From JACPSX01 sp035288405 [NCBI: bacterium] (GTDB taxonomy: Bacteria; JACPSX01), in the NCBI GenBank assembly GCA_035288405.1, contig DATEAK010000266.1, forward strand, positions 1 to 16,583: 16,583 nt of DNA, written 5' to 3'. The position numbers were made by a program, and so were the translations under genes. The notes under the pieces are model-generated. The model did no database searches. It was not told where the DNA came from and was given only the letters and a program-made list of their open reading frames with translations. Each line of letters starts with the position of its first letter. Positions within the stretch are counted from its first letter, which is position 1. Positions 83-10,578 of this stretch are shown here, piece by piece.

Positions 83-1345
83 CTAGTAGGCAGCGCGTCT
101 TTCCTTGAATCCGTAGATGATATGCAAGATGGCGATGAACATCAGCAGCCCAAGGCTGTACGTCCCTACCATCAATGTCCACTCGGCGTTTGAGGGCGAG
201 TAAATGGCCGACACCGGTAGGTTCGGGGTCATCAGGGAGGGAAGCAGAATATAGAGTCTCTCAGTGAACACCCCTATGACCACCATGAATGAGGAGAGTC
301 CGATCCACAGAGGGGTGCGGGTCCACGGAAGCCCCAACAGGACCAGGGGAATCAGCAGGCCCACAATCACGTCAAACCAGAAGATCCCCGAAAAACGACC
401 CTTGAGCAGTTCCTCGAGGACCGCCACGTGGGATACGGTGCCGGAATATCCCACTGTTAAATACTCGCTGAACAGAAAGTACATAAGGACCGGAATCAGA
501 AGGAAGAGGTACTTGCCAAGCTGGATCACCACGCTGTCGTCGATCTTGATCTTGAACATCCAGCGGGCCAGCAAAACATTGAGAATAACCCCGGCCATTC
601 CGGCCACAAGGGCGGAAACAATGAACAGAGGAGCCAGGATCGTGGTATTCCAACCCGCCTGTCCTTTGACCAAACCCAGGATCCAGGCAGTCACCGAATG
701 CAGAGCCACGAATCCAGGAATGGAGACGATAGCCAGGATCCTGAGGACCTTGTGATTCACTTCCAGAGCGCCATGCGAAAAGGGCAGCGGGACCCCAAGG
801 GAGAAAAGGCGCGCAAGCCAGCGGGTCTTTCTTGAAGATCCGAACTTCTCCGCCATCTCCGGGCGCACGCTAAAGAAGAGGAGGGCCGAACAAAGTACCA
901 GATAAGAGTTGATCACGATCACATCCCACAGGAGAGGAGAAGTGAGGCGAGCATAGAGAAGAAGGAAGTAGATCCGGTCGGGACGGCCCAGATCCAGGGT
1001 GATGAAAATACCGGCCAGAATCAGAAAGCTGATCGCCATGGCTTCAGCTACCACAGCAATGGTCTTCAACTTCTCCAGGTTCAAGGTATGAGCCATCGCA
1101 GAAATGGCGATGCCGCCGGCGCTGAGCCCCACGCAGAAGATGAAGTTCGCCACATAGATGCCCCACTGCACCGGGCGGTTGAGTCCCGTGATTCCCAGCC
1201 CCTGCGCTGTCTGGCGGTAGAACATATACATCCCGATCCCCACCAGCATCGCCAGCAGACCAGCCAGGTAAGCATAGTTCGGGAGCCCTTCCTGGTGGGG
1301 GTCGGCCAGCCTTGCTTGAGGTTGAAAGTTCGCGATTGTTGCCAT
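83..1345 (-). CDS. NrfD/PsrC-family integral membrane quinone-reactive subunit
   Basis: 420-aa polytopic membrane protein with about nine or ten hydrophobic segments. Family marks are GLSAGG (73-78), DLGRPDR (118-124), the stretch HSVTAWILG (216-224) followed by W232 and a P239..SAL segment, and ERLYILLPSL (362-371). NrfD/PsrC/DsrP proteins exchange electrons between the quinone pool and a peripheral Fe-S or molybdopterin subunit. No such partner lies inside the window, so the substrate is unknown. The frame stays open 57 codons further upstream, but that extension overlaps the preceding small gene and does not look like family sequence. I chose the ATG at 1345 because GGAGAGGAA lies just before it and the protein then begins as expected. 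It is the fourth gene of an operon headed by a cupin gene and lies 46 bp after the one-TM gene. The family is sure; the specific complex is not. Confidence 0.93.
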   Translation of the reverse strand: MATIANFQPQARLADPHQEGLPNYAYLAGLLAMLVGIGMYMFYRQTAQGLGITGLNRPVQWGIYVANFIFCVGLSAGGIAISAMAHTLNLEKLKTIAVVAEAMAISFLILAGIFITLDLGRPDRIYFLLLYARLTSPLLWDVIVINSYLVLCSALLFFSVRPEMAEKFGSSRKTRWLARLFSLGVPLPFSHGALEVNHKVLRILAIVSIPGFVALHSVTAWILGLVKGQAGWNTTILAPLFIVSALVAGMAGVILNVLLARWMFKIKIDDSVVIQLGKYLFLLIPVLMYFLFSEYLTVGYSGTVSHVAVLEELLKGRFSGIFWFDVIVGLLIPLVLLGLPWTRTPLWIGLSSFMVVIGVFTERLYILLPSLMTPNLPVSAIYSPSNAEWTLMVGTYSLGLLMFIAILHIIYGFKERRAAY

Positions 1346-1391: not shown

Positions 1392-1595
1392 TTACCGACT
1401 TGTGTACTGGATATAGCCGTAGACCAGCATGGCCACGGACACGATTGCCGATAGAATCCCGGTGCCGATGAGAATCCCGGTGACCACATAGAACGGTCGG
1501 TTTTCTTTTTGCCCAACCCCGGCTTCCCGGTAGACTTCCCGTGCCCTGGTGGGTACGGACATCGCGGTTGTCATGTACGTCGCACTCGTTTTCAT
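1392..1595 (-). CDS. Small single-pass membrane protein, operon partner of the NrfD-like subunit
   Basis: 67-aa protein with a polar N-terminus (1-34, rich in Arg and Lys) and one hydrophobic helix at about residues 36-62, ending in YTSR. I recognise no named family. Its ATG is separated by a single base from the stop of the two-TM gene (TAACATG on the minus strand), and AGGGG lies just upstream, so the two are almost certainly translated together. Its size, single helix and place directly before an NrfD-type gene suggest a small structural subunit of the same membrane complex. A start at the internal Met8 is also possible. The tight packing makes it a credible gene; its function is inference from context. 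Confidence 0.75.
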   Translation of the reverse strand: MKTSATYMTTAMSVPTRAREVYREAGVGQKENRPFYVVTGILIGTGILSAIVSVAMLVYGYIQYTSR

Positions 1596-1596
1596 G

Positions 1597-1860
1597 TTAG
1601 CCCCTCACTTGCTGGGCTGAGAACTTCACCCGCCCTTTGACCACTGCCTGCTGCGCTGCACTAGTGGACTCGCTGGGGCGGCGGTATATGTGAAGCAGCA
1701 CCCCGGCAACCATAACCACCGGCAGGACAATCTGGGCCATCCGAGCCAGCACCGCCGTATCCACATAGCCGAAATACAGGGTGCTCAAACCGATACTGAT
1801 GGCATGCATCGCCACAAACAATCCAGTCCCCCACAAAACGTACTTTTGCTGTCGAGTCAT
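1597..1860 (-). CDS. Small two-TM membrane protein, operon partner of the NrfD-like subunit
   Basis: 87-aa protein with two predicted membrane helices (about 8-30 and 38-60), a short loop containing YFGYVDTAV, and a basic, polar C-terminal tail (61-87) that is probably cytoplasmic. H19 in the first helix and H57 at the end of the second could be heme or quinone ligands, but no known heme-binding family is recognised. The ATG overlaps the cupin stop codon in an ATGA arrangement, which indicates translational coupling, and the next gene follows after 1 bp. It is most simply read as an accessory subunit of the NrfD-type complex. No homologue is recognised from the sequence. Confidence 0.78.
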   Translation of the reverse strand: MTRQQKYVLWGTGLFVAMHAISIGLSTLYFGYVDTAVLARMAQIVLPVVMVAGVLLHIYRRPSESTSAAQQAVVKGRVKFSAQQVRG

Positions 1861-2264
1861 TGCTGACCTCCTTCCCGAGGAGGAGGGTTCTGGCCTTCCT
1901 CCTTCGCGATGATTCCGTAGAGCAACGCCCGGTAGGGTTGACGGTTTACCAACCGAAAGCGAAACTGCTTTCCCGACCGGATACTATCTCCGCGCAATAC
2001 CTCATAAGAATCCCCCCCTTCTTCCATCATGAGCTCCCCTTCAGACAGCACCAAGATCGCCGTCTCTCCCCAGAGGTACGGCTCTTCAAGGGAAGATCGG
2101 GGCTGGATCTCAATGGAGACAACTTCAAAAGCACCGCAGTCAAACAGAACACGGATTTGTCCCTGGGGACGCTCGATGGAACGCAGGCACTTTTCCCGAT
2201 GCCAAACCTGGATCGATCCACTTTCTCCAAGAACCTGGGCTGAATTTTGTTCTGAAACCATCAT
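1857..2264 (-). CDS. Cupin-like small cytoplasmic protein, first gene of the NrfD operon
   Basis: 135-aa soluble protein. Its middle (about 35-120) has the beta-rich, Gly-spaced pattern of a single-domain cupin: a strand with VVSIEIQP, then ILVLSEGELMMEEGG (70-84), a turn RGDSIRSG (91-98), and a final strand pair FRFRLVNRQPYRALLYGI. The His residues that bind metal in classical cupins are absent, so a catalytic role is doubtful and a binding or sensing role is more likely. The tail (121-135) is Gln/Pro/Gly-rich. The ATG at 2264 (a second ATG follows at once) is preceded by GGAAGGAAAG. The gene starts about 40 nt after the predicted start site of the sigma-54 promoter at 2315-2330 and overlaps the next gene by 4 bp. 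The fold call is moderate; the function is unknown. Confidence 0.75.
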   Translation of the reverse strand: MMVSEQNSAQVLGESGSIQVWHREKCLRSIERPQGQIRVLFDCGAFEVVSIEIQPRSSLEEPYLWGETAILVLSEGELMMEEGGDSYEVLRGDSIRSGKQFRFRLVNRQPYRALLYGIIAKEEGQNPPPREGGQQ

Positions 2265-2314
2265 GGATCTTTCCTTCCCCCGCAGGCCTCTTTCCCCCTG
2301 CTGCCATTTCAGAT

Positions 2315-2330
2315 TGCAATCTAAATGCCA
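2315..2330 (-). promoter_or_regulatory. Sigma-54 (RpoN) -24/-12 promoter of the cupin-NrfD operon
   Basis: On the minus strand the site reads TGGCATTTAGATTGCA. It has the invariant GG and GC of sigma-54 promoters with exactly 10 bases between them and matches the family pattern TGGCAC-N5-TTGCA at nearly every position. The predicted transcription start is near 2304, giving a leader of about 40 nt before the cupin ATG at 2264. No other well-formed GG-N10-GC site with these flanks was seen in the gaps examined. The site also lies inside the perfect 12-bp palindrome AGATTGCAATCT (2311-2322). Confidence 0.8.
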
Positions 2331-2414
2331 ACAAGAGAACTCCTGTAAAATATTATTATATAAAGAGATACAAAACGATTGAAAGAATGACGGGAGGCGA
2401 GCCGGTGGTCAATG

Positions 2415-2431
2415 TATTGCAATTTGCAATA
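2415..2431. promoter_or_regulatory. Proximal upstream activator site (palindrome) for an NtrC-type activator
   Basis: TATTGCAATTTGCAATA is a perfect inverted repeat: two 8-bp arms around one central base. Its centre lies about 119 bp upstream of the predicted start site, within the range where enhancer-binding proteins bind. A second, slightly degenerate copy lies 57 bp further upstream. The stretch between site and promoter (2341-2400) is AT-rich, as expected where DNA must loop. The binding protein is not shown by sequence; the NtrC-type regulator encoded at 3609-5015 is the natural candidate. Confidence 0.68.
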
Positions 2432-2471
2432 ACTTTCTTTGTTTTATTTAAAATTCAACAAGTTATGCGAG

Positions 2472-2496
2472 TATTGCAATTTGCAAGCTAGTTGCA
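2472..2496. promoter_or_regulatory. Distal upstream activator site with an extra TTGCA half-site
   Basis: TATTGCAATTTGCAAG (2472-2487) repeats the proximal palindrome with identical first 15 bases and then diverges. Just beyond it, TGCAA-GCTAG-TTGCA (2482-2496) forms a second inverted pair that reuses one half-site. The centre lies near -176 relative to the predicted sigma-54 start. Two activator sites in tandem are typical for proteins that form a hexamer before activating sigma-54 polymerase. Confidence 0.62.
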
Positions 2497-2585: not shown

Positions 2586-3497
2586 CTAATGCTCCTCCTT
2601 CGAATGGAAAAGCAGAGAAGCAAAGACCGAGAGGGCCAGGACTCCACCCACGATTCCGAGGGAGATTCCTATGGGGATGGGATAAGCCTCTGCGAGGAGC
2701 ATCTTTGCCCCCACAAAGCAGAGGACAATTGCCAACCCAAACTTCAAGAACCGAAAACGATTTACGACGCCCGCCAGCAGAAAGTAGAAGGATCTCAGCC
2801 CCAGGACCGCAAAGACGTTTGAGGTGTACACAATAAACGGATCCCGTGTCACAGCAAAGATGGCCGGCACAGAATCCACAGCAAAGATCAGATCCGTCGT
2901 CTCCACCACAACCAGGACCAGGAAGAGGGGGGTCAACCAGAAGCGCCTTTCCCGTCGGACCAGAAAGCGCTGCCCCTCATAGCCGGGAGTTACGGAAAAA
3001 ATTCTGCGGCAAAACCGAAGCACAAGGTTCTTCTCCGGATCCAACCGGCCATGGGGCTGAAGGGCCATCTTGATCCCCGTTAGGATCAGGAATCCACCGA
3101 ACAGGTAGATGATCCAGTGGAACCGTGCCAGGAGCAGCGCCCCCAGAGCAATGAAGATTCCACGCATGATCAAAGCGCCAATGATCCCCCAGAGAAGGAC
3201 CCGGTGCTGATACTGGGCCGGAACGGCAAAGTAGTGGAAGATCATCACGAACACAAACAGGTTGTCCACGCTCAGGGAAAGCTCGATGAGGTAGCCGGTG
3301 AGAAATTCCAGACCCTTGATGGAGCCCTGAGTCCAGAGGATGAGTCCATTGAACCCAAATGCCAGGCCCACCCATACGGCACTCCAGAGGCTTGCCTCCC
3401 GCAGGGAAACGATACGGGCCCGGCGATGAAAAAGACCCAAATCAAGGGTCAGCATCACGAGGATAAAAACGATAAAGCCGATCCAGTACCAGGCCAC
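2586..3497 (-). CDS. TerC/Alx-family integral membrane protein
   Basis: 303-aa membrane protein with about eight or nine helices. It carries the two conserved acidic TerC blocks: ELSLSVDNLFVFV (72-84) and ETTDLIFAVDSVPAIFAVT (199-217), followed by SNVFAVLGLRSFYFLLA (226-242). TerC/Alx proteins are linked to metal-ion export (manganese in several bacteria) and to tellurite resistance operons; no other ter gene is present here. The frame is open 35 codons further upstream, but that part is not family-like. GTG at 3497 follows GGGAGGGAG at good spacing and places the first helix at residue 4, as in homologues, so I prefer it. It lies 111 bp after the response regulator gene and may have its own control. 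Family is sure; the ion transported is not visible. Confidence 0.92.
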   Translation of the reverse strand: MAWYWIGFIVFILVMLTLDLGLFHRRARIVSLREASLWSAVWVGLAFGFNGLILWTQGSIKGLEFLTGYLIELSLSVDNLFVFVMIFHYFAVPAQYQHRVLLWGIIGALIMRGIFIALGALLLARFHWIIYLFGGFLILTGIKMALQPHGRLDPEKNLVLRFCRRIFSVTPGYEGQRFLVRRERRFWLTPLFLVLVVVETTDLIFAVDSVPAIFAVTRDPFIVYTSNVFAVLGLRSFYFLLAGVVNRFRFLKFGLAIVLCFVGAKMLLAEAYPIPIGISLGIVGGVLALSVFASLLFHSKEEH

Positions 3498-3608: not shown

Positions 3609-5015
3609 TCAATCGTCTTGATTGGAGGGCTCACCCTCCTCCTTGCCTAGTTTCCGCCAAAGGGTTACGGGAGAGACCCCCAGAATTTCCGCAGCGCGTG
3701 TGCGGTTTCCATTGCAGAGTTCCAGGACCTCCCGGATGTACTTAATCTCCGCCTCCCGCAGACTGGGCAGTGAACTTAGATCCTTTCCGGAAGAGGTCCG
3801 CGTCGGATCGCGCGCCTCGCTGACCATATGCTGGGGGAGGTGCTTGGTACGAATCAGCTCCCCCGGTTCTGCAAAGATCACAGCACGTTCGATGGCGTTC
3901 TTGAGTTCCCGGATGTTGCCGGGCCAGGGATAGCGGGACAGGAACTCAAGCGCATCCTCGGAAAAATCCCCTACACCCTTCTTGAGCTCCTTGCAATACT
4001 GGGCGAGAAAGTGGCGGGCCAGCGAGACCACATCTTGGAGGTGTTGGCGCAAAGGAGGAATCGCAATCTGAACTACATTGAGCCGATAATAGAGGTCATC
4101 ACGAAAGCGGCTTGCCGCCATCTCTTCGTCCAGGTTCTTGTTGGTAGCTGCAATGACGCGTACGTCGACCAGAACATCCTCTTCCGAGCCGACCCTTTTG
4201 ATTCTGGAATCCTCCAACACCCTCAGGATCTTCGCCTGCATCTCAGGGCGCATCTCGGCAATCTCATCGAGGAAAAGCGTGCCCCCGTCGGCGAGCTCGA
4301 AACTGCCCCGCTTCGTATAGACCGCTCCCGTAAAGGCTCCTTTGCGGTGGCCAAAAAGCTCGCTTTCCAGGAGATTCTCGGGGATGGCGGCGCAATTCAC
4401 TGTGACAAAGGGTCGGGCGGCGCGCGGACTGTTCATGTGGATGAAGCGGGCAATCACTTCCTTCCCCGTGCCGCTTTCTCCCAGAATCAACACGTTGGAA
4501 TTATTGGACGCCACTTTCAGGCCCAGGTCAAAGATGTCCCGCATGGCCCGGCTCTGGCCCATGAAAATCTCGCGCCCGTAGAAACCTCGAATCTCCCCTT
4601 TCAGAAAAAGGTTCTCATCGGCGAGACGCCGGTGCTCCATGGCTTTTCCAACCAGAACCCGCAGGTGGTCAGGCTTAAAAGGTTTCGTAATGTAATCCTG
4701 AGCGCCGAGCTTGATGCAAGTGATCGCAGATTCCAGAGAAGCGTATCCCGTGATCATGAGGACCCCGATGCTGGGATCGTGTTCCTTGATTTTATTGAGA
4801 AGCTGAATGCCATCCATCTTGGGCATTTTGACGTCGCAGATGATCAGGTCGTAGGCCCCCCTCTGGACCATTTCCAAGGCCGCCAAAGGATCCGTAGAGG
4901 CATCCACCACAAAGCCCGTTTTCTCCAAAGCCCGTTTGATGGCATCGGTGATGTTGACCTCATCATCCACCACCAGAATGCGGCCGTGATTTTCCCCTGT
5001 TTCCAGATCAGGCAT
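3609..5015 (-). CDS. NtrC-family sigma-54-dependent response regulator
   Basis: 468-aa protein with three domains. The receiver domain (about 11-125) has the acidic pair D17/D18, phospho-acceptor D61 (ICDVKMPKMDG), T89 and K111. The AAA+ domain (about 150-385) has Walker A GESGTGKE (179-186), the sigma-54-contacting loop GAFTGA (226-231), Walker B GGTLFLDE (244-251), and WPGNIRELKNAI (364-375). A Fis-type helix-turn-helix lies near the end (GNRTRAAEILGVSPVTLWRKL, 436-456). All residues for phosphorylation, ATP hydrolysis and sigma-54 contact are present, so it should be active. The ATG at 5015 has only a distant GGAG, so initiation may be weak or coupled to the flavoprotein gene that ends 37 bp upstream. 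It is the only sigma-54 activator in the window and the prime candidate to bind the palindromes at 2415-2496. Its kinase is not adjacent; the one at 9007-10578 is a candidate. Confidence 0.96.
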   Translation of the reverse strand: MPDLETGENHGRILVVDDEVNITDAIKRALEKTGFVVDASTDPLAALEMVQRGAYDLIICDVKMPKMDGIQLLNKIKEHDPSIGVLMITGYASLESAITCIKLGAQDYITKPFKPDHLRVLVGKAMEHRRLADENLFLKGEIRGFYGREIFMGQSRAMRDIFDLGLKVASNNSNVLILGESGTGKEVIARFIHMNSPRAARPFVTVNCAAIPENLLESELFGHRKGAFTGAVYTKRGSFELADGGTLFLDEIAEMRPEMQAKILRVLEDSRIKRVGSEEDVLVDVRVIAATNKNLDEEMAASRFRDDLYYRLNVVQIAIPPLRQHLQDVVSLARHFLAQYCKELKKGVGDFSEDALEFLSRYPWPGNIRELKNAIERAVIFAEPGELIRTKHLPQHMVSEARDPTRTSSGKDLSSLPSLREAEIKYIREVLELCNGNRTRAAEILGVSPVTLWRKLGKEEGEPSNQDD

Positions 5016-9006: not shown

Positions 9007-10578
9007 TCAATCCGATTCTTCTTTGCCGATGTCTACAGGTAGAGTAACCCGAAGCGTGGTTCCGCTCTCTTTCCCCAGCTGCTGAGCCTCCTCTTCCACG
9101 ACCGATTCAATTTCGATCTTTCCGCCGTGTTCCTGGACGATTCCGTAACTAATCGACAAACCCAGCCCGGTGCCATCTTCCTTCGTGGTAAAGAACGGAT
9201 CAAACACCATGGGGCGGGCTGCGGGGGGGATTCCCGGGCCCGAATCCTGCACCGTGATTACCACCTGATCCTCCGCCGCCCGAGTCACCAGTCGGAGGGA
9301 TCCTCCCGTTCCCATGGCCTGAACGGCATTGAGGATTACATTCGTAAAGACTTGCTGGAGGCGATCCGCATCGCAGCGGACCAGAGGCAAATCCGCTTCC
9401 AGATGAGTTTCGGTCTTGATCTCCTTGAGTTCCAGATCGTGCCCGACCAGATCCAGGGTTTTCCGCAGAATGTCGTTGACTTGAGCGTATTCCAACTGAA
9501 GTTCCCGCTTCCGGGAAAATTCTCTCAACTCATCGATGATTCTCTTGCAGCGAGAGGCGTCCTCATCAATCTTACGCATGTCCCGGTAGAGGGGGGAATT
9601 CTCACTCACCTCCTCCATGAGCAAGTTGATGTTCATGAGAATGCTCGTGAGAGGATTGTTCAACTCGTGGGCCACCCCGCTGGCCAGCAGGCCGATGGAG
9701 GCCAGTTTCTCGGACTGCCGCAGGGATTCTTCCTTGCGCTTGAGTTCCTCCGTACGCTGGCGCACTTTTTCTTCCAGAGACCGGCTGTACTCCTCAACCC
9801 GTTCCTTGTAGGTCGCCAATTCCGCGATCATCGCGTTAAAAGACCGTCCCAGCTCCCCGATTTCGTCCGCCTCCCCCGCCTCCACCCGGTAACTCAGATC
9901 CCCTTGAACGATCCGCTTGGTTCCCAGAGAAAGCTGGCGAATGGGCTTTGAAATTTTCTGGGAGACGAAAAACCCGGTGACCACTGCCAGTCCCACTACC
10001 GTGGCTGTGAAGATAAACAGGAGGTTGGTTGCCTGGCGGCTTACCAGGCGGGACTGTTCCCGAAGCTCCTCGACCCGTTTCAGAAGAGCCCCATCCATGA
10101 TTTTGGTCTGGCTTAGGACTTCCTCCGTCGTTCGGACAATCCGCGTCATAATATCGATCCCTTCCGGACTGCGCAGGGGATCTCTCAGGGAAAAAAGCTC
10201 ATCGGCCAATTTCTTTACCTTGGTAATGTCAGGAGAGATAACGCTGACCATCTCCCGAGGCCTCTTGCTGGACCCGTGGCAAAAGGCCGTACCACAGCTT
10301 TGCAACTGCTTTTGTACGCCCTGCATGAGAACGGCAAAGTGGACCTCGGCCCCCGGGTCCGCCTGGAGAAGGTAGCTATTGATCGGATCCGAGAGCTCGG
10401 CCAAGGAAAGATTCAAAGCGCGGGTGGCTTCCAGGGAGCGGCTGATTTCCTCAAGCTGGCGGGCAATGTTGACGAGCTCCCTTTGGGCGTAAAAGCTCAC
10501 CCCTCCCAGGATGAGAGCTTCCGGGAGAACGACCAGAAGGAACGCCAGGACCAGCTTTCGCAGAATCGGGCTGCTCAT
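9007..10578 (-). CDS. Membrane histidine kinase with a possible heme-binding CX4CH motif in its external domain
   Basis: 523 aa. TM1 (about 8-28), an extracytoplasmic helical domain (29-184), TM2 (about 185-206), HAMP (206-258), a coiled coil (about 255-292), HisKA with H304 in SGVAHELNNPL, and a HATPase domain with N417, DSGPG (445-449) and GTGLGL (469-474). All catalytic motifs are intact. The external domain carries CGTAFCH (C95, C100, H101), a CX4CH arrangement known as a variant c-type heme site in some cytochromes, so redox or gas sensing is plausible but unproven. NtrB-like kinases of this design usually pair with NtrC-type regulators; one lies at 3609-5015 on the same strand. The ATG at 10578 has no clear Shine-Dalgarno sequence. 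The gene precedes the acyl-CoA dehydrogenase by 18 bp. Confidence 0.95.
   Translation of the reverse strand: MSSPILRKLVLAFLLVVLPEALILGGVSFYAQRELVNIARQLEEISRSLEATRALNLSLAELSDPINSYLLQADPGAEVHFAVLMQGVQKQLQSCGTAFCHGSSKRPREMVSVISPDITKVKKLADELFSLRDPLRSPEGIDIMTRIVRTTEEVLSQTKIMDGALLKRVEELREQSRLVSRQATNLLFIFTATVVGLAVVTGFFVSQKISKPIRQLSLGTKRIVQGDLSYRVEAGEADEIGELGRSFNAMIAELATYKERVEEYSRSLEEKVRQRTEELKRKEESLRQSEKLASIGLLASGVAHELNNPLTSILMNINLLMEEVSENSPLYRDMRKIDEDASRCKRIIDELREFSRKRELQLEYAQVNDILRKTLDLVGHDLELKEIKTETHLEADLPLVRCDADRLQQVFTNVILNAVQAMGTGGSLRLVTRAAEDQVVITVQDSGPGIPPAARPMVFDPFFTTKEDGTGLGLSISYGIVQEHGGKIEIESVVEEEAQQLGKESGTTLRVTLPVDIGKEESD

Follow-up and report, generated by a model that had tools for sequence, protein, structure and literature searches.

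We identified the 321-bp gap at positions 2265-2585 of the window (the whole stretch of DNA analysed, 16,583 nucleotides) as the probable sigma-54 control region of a predicted operon for a cupin-like protein, two small membrane proteins and an NrfD-family protein, probably worked by the NtrC-family regulator NtrC1; we give this reading a probability of about 0.7. The presence of a control region with tandem enhancers is well supported by the letters, their spacing and the conservation in one orthologue. The control region itself is of a known kind, and the surprising part is the identity of its boxes to the LuxO box in a Tectomicrobia-like lineage. The features, in order of position, are as follows.

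83-1345, minus strand: NrfD-family membrane subunit (PF03916, E 6.1e-44)
1392-1595, minus strand: second small membrane-protein gene, an open frame also in the close relative L001 (coordinates by hand from the translation)
1597-1860, minus strand: small membrane-protein gene, with an orthologue of 87 aa in L001 (coordinates by hand from the translation)
1857-2264, minus strand: open reading frame for the cupin-like protein, first gene of the predicted operon
2265-2585: predicted control region, bounded by terC, which ends at base 2586, and by the cupin-like gene, whose first base is 2264
2315-2330, minus strand: predicted sigma-54 -24/-12 promoter TGGCAT-N5-TTGCA, with the predicted start near 2304
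2354-2370: AT-rich block between promoter and boxes (minus strand TATCTCTTTATATAATA), conserved in L001
2415-2431: proximal box TATTGCAATTTGCAATA, a perfect 17-bp palindrome with a core equal to the LuxO box
2474-2486: distal box TTGCAATTTGCAA, a palindrome perfect over 13 bp
2487-2503: distal-box flank carrying a further half-site, ATGCAA (2497-2492 of the minus strand), conserved in L001
2586-3602, minus strand: TerC-family gene (PF03741), between activator gene and promoter
3609-5015, minus strand: NtrC1, the candidate activator, with a receiver, a sigma-54 AAA+ domain with GAFTGA and a Fis-type HTH

Read directly, the minus strand from 2331 to 2315 is TTGGCATTTAGATTGCA, which confirms the TGGCAT-N5-TTGCA that a preliminary description of this DNA had placed at 2315-2330 and contains the letters of a sigma-54 promoter (GG-N10-GC with TTGGCA and TTGC elements). 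It fits the Clostridiales consensus TTGGCATNNNNNTTGCT except for the last letter of the consensus (PMC6615313; this and the other papers are cited from excerpts). Upstream of it, TTGCAATTTGCAA occurs twice in the gap, at 2417-2429 and 2474-2486, and TATTGCAATTTGCAA begins at 2415 and 2472; with the start set 12 nt after the GC, the box centres lie 119 and 176 bp from it, and the two copies are thus 57 bp apart and as far upstream of the predicted start as had been described. The description of both copies as tandem 17-bp palindromes holds for the proximal one (2415-2431), whereas the distal one is perfect over 13 bp only. The half-site ATGCAA in the distal flank sits 11 bp from the next TTGCAA, and the same half-site is found at position 3984 of L001. 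A third TTGCAA at 2314-2319 was considered as a third box and rejected: it overlaps the -12 element, of which TTGCA is a regular part, and it is a perfect palindrome in the window and not in L001. Between promoter and boxes, the AT-rich block at 2354-2370 matches no recognised consensus and perhaps has a role in DNA bending.

Chance was assessed by shuffling the 321-bp gap with dinucleotides preserved. TTGCAANTTGCAA arose in 0 of 20,000 shuffles, a 16-nt direct repeat in 0 of 3,000 and two alike 6-1-6 palindromes in 1 of 5,000, while 39 of 5,000 contained a sense sigma-54 match with one mismatch or none. The loose sigma-54 pattern is found 12 times in the whole window (mean 7.1), a count that is not significant, as many having occurred in 13 of 200 shuffles. 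The weight is carried by the boxes, the position and the conservation.

Conservation in a relative is a stronger argument than motif counts. A genome scan returned three loci, one close (L001) and two distant (L002 and L003), and the conservation of the control region is that in a single relative, L001. This locus lies on a contig of a Candidatus Tectomicrobia metagenome-assembled genome (MAG), encodes an NrfD protein 91% identical to that of the window and has the same gene order: activator gene, terC, gap, cupin-like gene, two small membrane-protein genes and NrfD. Its terC is without about 145 bp that are present in the window (L001:3698-3701 compared with window 2787-2931), either a true deletion or an assembly fault. 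The alignment of window and L001 is gap-free from the distal box through the promoter, so that all three elements keep the same spacing. Identical columns number 16 of 17 in the distal box (counterpart 3995-4007, with the 13-mer exact), 16 of 17 in the promoter (2315-2331) and 12 of 17 in the proximal box (counterpart 4052-4064, one mismatch in the 13-mer), the last figure counting against our reading. Altogether, 44 of the 51 motif columns are identical, compared with 61 of 123 outside the motifs in the same stretch (Fisher p 3e-6, with columns treated as independent). Aligning the same gap from related genomes had been proposed as a check, and in L001, the one orthologue found, boxes and promoter are indeed kept upstream of the orthologous operon. 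The distant NrfD loci L002 and L003 show neither a cupin relative at E 1e-3 nor a box with two or fewer mismatches; L003 has two sigma-54-like matches, and rpoN is present in the genomes of both. Among viral contigs and plasmids no cupin relative was found, and a phylum search centred on the genome of L001 gave no further relative beyond that genome.

Judging from the genome of the close relative, sigma-54 promoters seem to be in use in this lineage. It contains 20 Sigma54_activat matches, 15 of them strong, with GAFTGA matched in 11 of the 15. Downstream DNA of 500 bp is available for 14 strong matches, a count that leaves out L032 (13 bp of downstream DNA) and the five weaker matches L042-L046 and includes L029, whose frame stops before the HTH and whose downstream stretch is perhaps not that of the whole gene. 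Four of these 14 (L027, L028, L031 and L038) are followed, 113-164 bp past the stop codon, by a sigma-54 match in which GG/GC is intact, against one of 14 on the other strand and two matches in 67,392 strand-bases of background loci; four were reached in 0 of 2,000 shuffle rounds. Palindromes with 6-bp arms lie downstream of L028 and L038, and none downstream of L027 and L031. The relative's locus has a second regulator, NtrC2, past the operon in the same direction; it is followed by a weaker promoter-like site, TGGCACGACCCTTGTT, in which GT replaces GC, together with an unlike palindrome, CCCTAC-N5-GTAGGG; this site and that of L034 (two mismatches) were not counted as matches. In addition, TGGCAYNNNNNTTGCA occurs seven times in the relative's genome and 0 times in the reversed control. 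Against such use, three models gave no match for rpoN in this genome, a fragmented MAG (contig numbers up to C294) in which ribosomal protein S7 was found; given that the assembly is in many contigs, rpoN may be missing from the assembly. No mention linking Tectomicrobia with sigma-54 was present among the literature matches listed.

The boxes have a published counterpart. The LuxO box consensus is TTGCAWWWTGCAA (PMC10162802), also given as TTGCA-N3-TGCAA (PMC3352281), and both copies in the window and one of the two L001 boxes agree with the stricter form, TTGCAWWWTGCAA. In Vibrio cholerae, the LuxO ChIP-seq sites at qrr2 and qrr4 read ttgcaatttgcaa, to which the 13-mer of the window is identical (PMC10328515). 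The layout is comparable as well: in Vibrio fischeri, qrr1 has one LuxO box in each of the intervals -175 to -106 and -106 to -60 (PMC10162802), and here, too, two boxes lie upstream of a sigma-54 promoter, with a candidate regulator that is likewise an NtrC-family response regulator. However, the organism is another one, the candidate regulator scores below the LuxO cut-off of NCBIfam, and the boxes precede protein genes, whereas those of LuxO precede small RNAs. As to Qrr small RNAs as a target, Rfam gave 0 matches to any family at the gathering score in the window and L001. Since letters and layout are of the LuxO type, we consider the boxes a match to a known enhancer with a different target.

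NtrC-type enhancers read GCAC-N5-GTGC; the 17-bp dyad described here can be read as TTGC-N5-GCAA, with the same spacing but different half-site letters. The HupR site, TTG-N5-CAA, was dropped as a candidate because its letters do not fit the boxes, and TTG-N5-CAA was not found among the literature matches listed. Sigma-54 promoters usually have enhancers at such distances, more than one site and an activator gene in the vicinity (PMC6615313). The sigma-54 regulons of Clostridiales (PMC6615313) and Desulfovibrio (PMC4641369) share the layout of a -24/-12 promoter, upstream palindromes and an activator gene that is often close; in the excerpted text, motif logos and supplements aside, PMC4641369 does not contain GCAA and PMC6615313 does not contain TTGCAA.

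Another question regards the size of the regulon. The palindrome had been put forward as a search motif for the whole regulon, which stands in part: in the relative, a core of it precedes three sigma-54-like promoters, while the exact 13-mer marks one only. In exact form, TTGCAANTTGCAA occurs once in the relative's genome, at the studied promoter only; with up to two mismatches it occurs at 47 places, compared with 23 for the reversed control. At all 47, the 400 bp downstream of the box were checked for a sigma-54 match with one mismatch or none. Besides the studied promoter with its two boxes, two places qualify, and the reading that a single operon of that genome is marked by the motif was dropped. 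On C67, ATGCAAATTGCAC and a perfect TGGCACTCCTCTTGCT precede an RHS-type gene (L078 / L051, G001:C67:2497). On C259, GTGCAATTTGCAC and CGGCACCATTCTTGCT precede a gene with PAS and cyclase domains (L079 / L073, G001:C259:3339), domains for which an assignment as sensor kinase was dropped. Two of 43 places outside the locus is near the background rate (about one expected). The 11-bp core TGCAANTTGCA is found at four places, a subset chosen after the fact, of which those on C97, C67 and C259 qualify and that on C123 does not. The studied locus lacks an element, TGCAAWTTGCACANNNNTTTGTGCARCG, that is common to the sites on C67 and C259, where 22 of 28 positions are identical, and the outer letters of these two sites differ from those of the studied boxes. 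These core matches may therefore belong to another regulator; the two sites may be bound by the regulator of the studied locus or by a sister with near specificity. L015 was not counted as a further promoter because its sigma-54-like match overlaps its box, and the LuxO-like sites on C131 and C124 are without a sigma-54 match in enhancer layout.

With regard to the activator, the preliminary description had called it unknown, which now appears overcautious, since the box has been published as that of LuxO and a GAFTGA-bearing NtrC-family regulator is encoded two genes upstream. This gene, NtrC1, has the receiver, the sigma-54 AAA+ domain with GAFTGA and the Fis-type HTH of an NtrC-family enhancer-binding protein, and it is 93% identical in L001, in the same order. 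With the full LuxO family model (NCBIfam NF041946, cut-off 800 bits) NtrC1 scores 374.3 bits and by that cut-off is not a member of the family. The LuxO chain 5ep0 was matched across the receiver and the AAA+ domain only. When isolated C-termini were scanned with the LuxO model, NtrC1 of the window (24.6 bits) and its L001 copy (22.3 bits) were the best of 15, followed among the matches listed by 20.2, 14.9, 13.7, 13.0, 12.8 and 12.0 bits; the 15 comprise NtrC1 of the window and 14 regulators from the relative, where L029 alone of the 15 strong ones was left out. The C-terminus of NtrC2 is absent among these listed matches. For the C-terminus of NtrC1 itself, LuxO ranks eighth of 17 families, which counts against a LuxO-type reading, and the top scores are therefore weak support. 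It also counts against NtrC1 that no sigma-54 site lies within 500 bp of its stop codon, the presumed target being located past terC.

Several other explanations of the gap have to be weighed. A chance similarity without function would agree with the unenriched promoter pattern, but the shuffle results and the conservation in L001 make it highly improbable. Alternatively, the boxes could be operators of a regulator that does not work with sigma-54, the promoter match being incidental. TTGCAA palindromes suit many helix-turn-helix factors, and the missing rpoN match in the relative and the pattern count over the window would be in line with such operators. However, the -24 element lies 84 bp downstream of the end of the nearer box, the promoter is kept almost unchanged in L001, a scan of 2250-2620 gave no sigma-70 promoter, and sigma-54 matches recur behind the activator genes of the relative; we regard this explanation as improbable, if less so than chance.

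Perhaps the control region is real and its boxes are bound by a different enhancer-binding protein, encoded elsewhere, or by NtrC2 downstream of the operon. The number of strong Sigma54_activat matches in the relative provides candidates, NtrC2 lies past the operon in the same direction, LuxO is not the top family for the C-terminus of NtrC1, and two more core-box sigma-54-like promoters exist elsewhere in the relative's genome. NtrC2, however, has a promoter-like site and palindrome of its own and does not appear among the listed LuxO-model matches, whereas NtrC1 is the nearest regulator gene and its position is kept in L001. We consider such an activator unlikely, though the most serious of the alternatives, and NtrC1 as the probable regulator of the gap.

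Beyond the letters themselves, we infer the following mechanism. NtrC1 would be phosphorylated on a signal, with D61 as the phosphoacceptor suggested by its sequence, bind the two LuxO-type boxes at about -119 and -176 and oligomerise; the oligomer would then loop to sigma-54 RNA polymerase at 2315-2330, and ATP hydrolysis by NtrC1 would open the polymerase complex. As an outcome, a quinol/cytochrome electron-transfer module would be made on signal only. The broader proposal that a non-quorum NtrC-family regulator in a Tectomicrobia-like lineage uses a LuxO-identical box to switch on an NrfD-type operon is tentative, and we put it slightly short of even odds. If it were true, the specificity for the LuxO box would be ancient, or have arisen repeatedly, in one kind of Fis-type HTH rather than being an invention of Vibrio, and if NtrC1 and LuxO bind the same letters, the recognition helices of the NtrC family could be compared across phyla. 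The analysis provides a concrete operator, tied to the LuxO box, and names a candidate activator for what is probably an electron-transfer operon of an uncultured lineage. The core variants on C67 and C259, together with at least four of 14 activator genes followed by a sigma-54 match, suggest that pairs of regulator and operator may be read from such genomes, perhaps as far as a code from recognition helix to operator; these promoter/box pairs and activator genes are further test cases.

The assignments within the operon differ in strength. The cupin-like protein has a weak Cupin_2 match (E 0.16, below the cut-off), and a cupin fold from a structure model was dropped as the model was too poor (pLDDT 43.9). 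For the NrfD-family protein the best NCBIfam model is DsrP, at 155.6 bits and below its cut-off of 350. In the relative, NrfD is followed (L001:6668-8293) by a triheme c7-type cytochrome and a multihaem cytochrome whose N-terminus is NapC/NirT-like; both may belong to the operon. Elsewhere in the window, positions 9007-10578 of the minus strand encode a sensor histidine kinase with an N-terminal CGTAFCH (C-x4-CH) that is possibly haem-binding, and a role as redox sensor is possible from its sequence.
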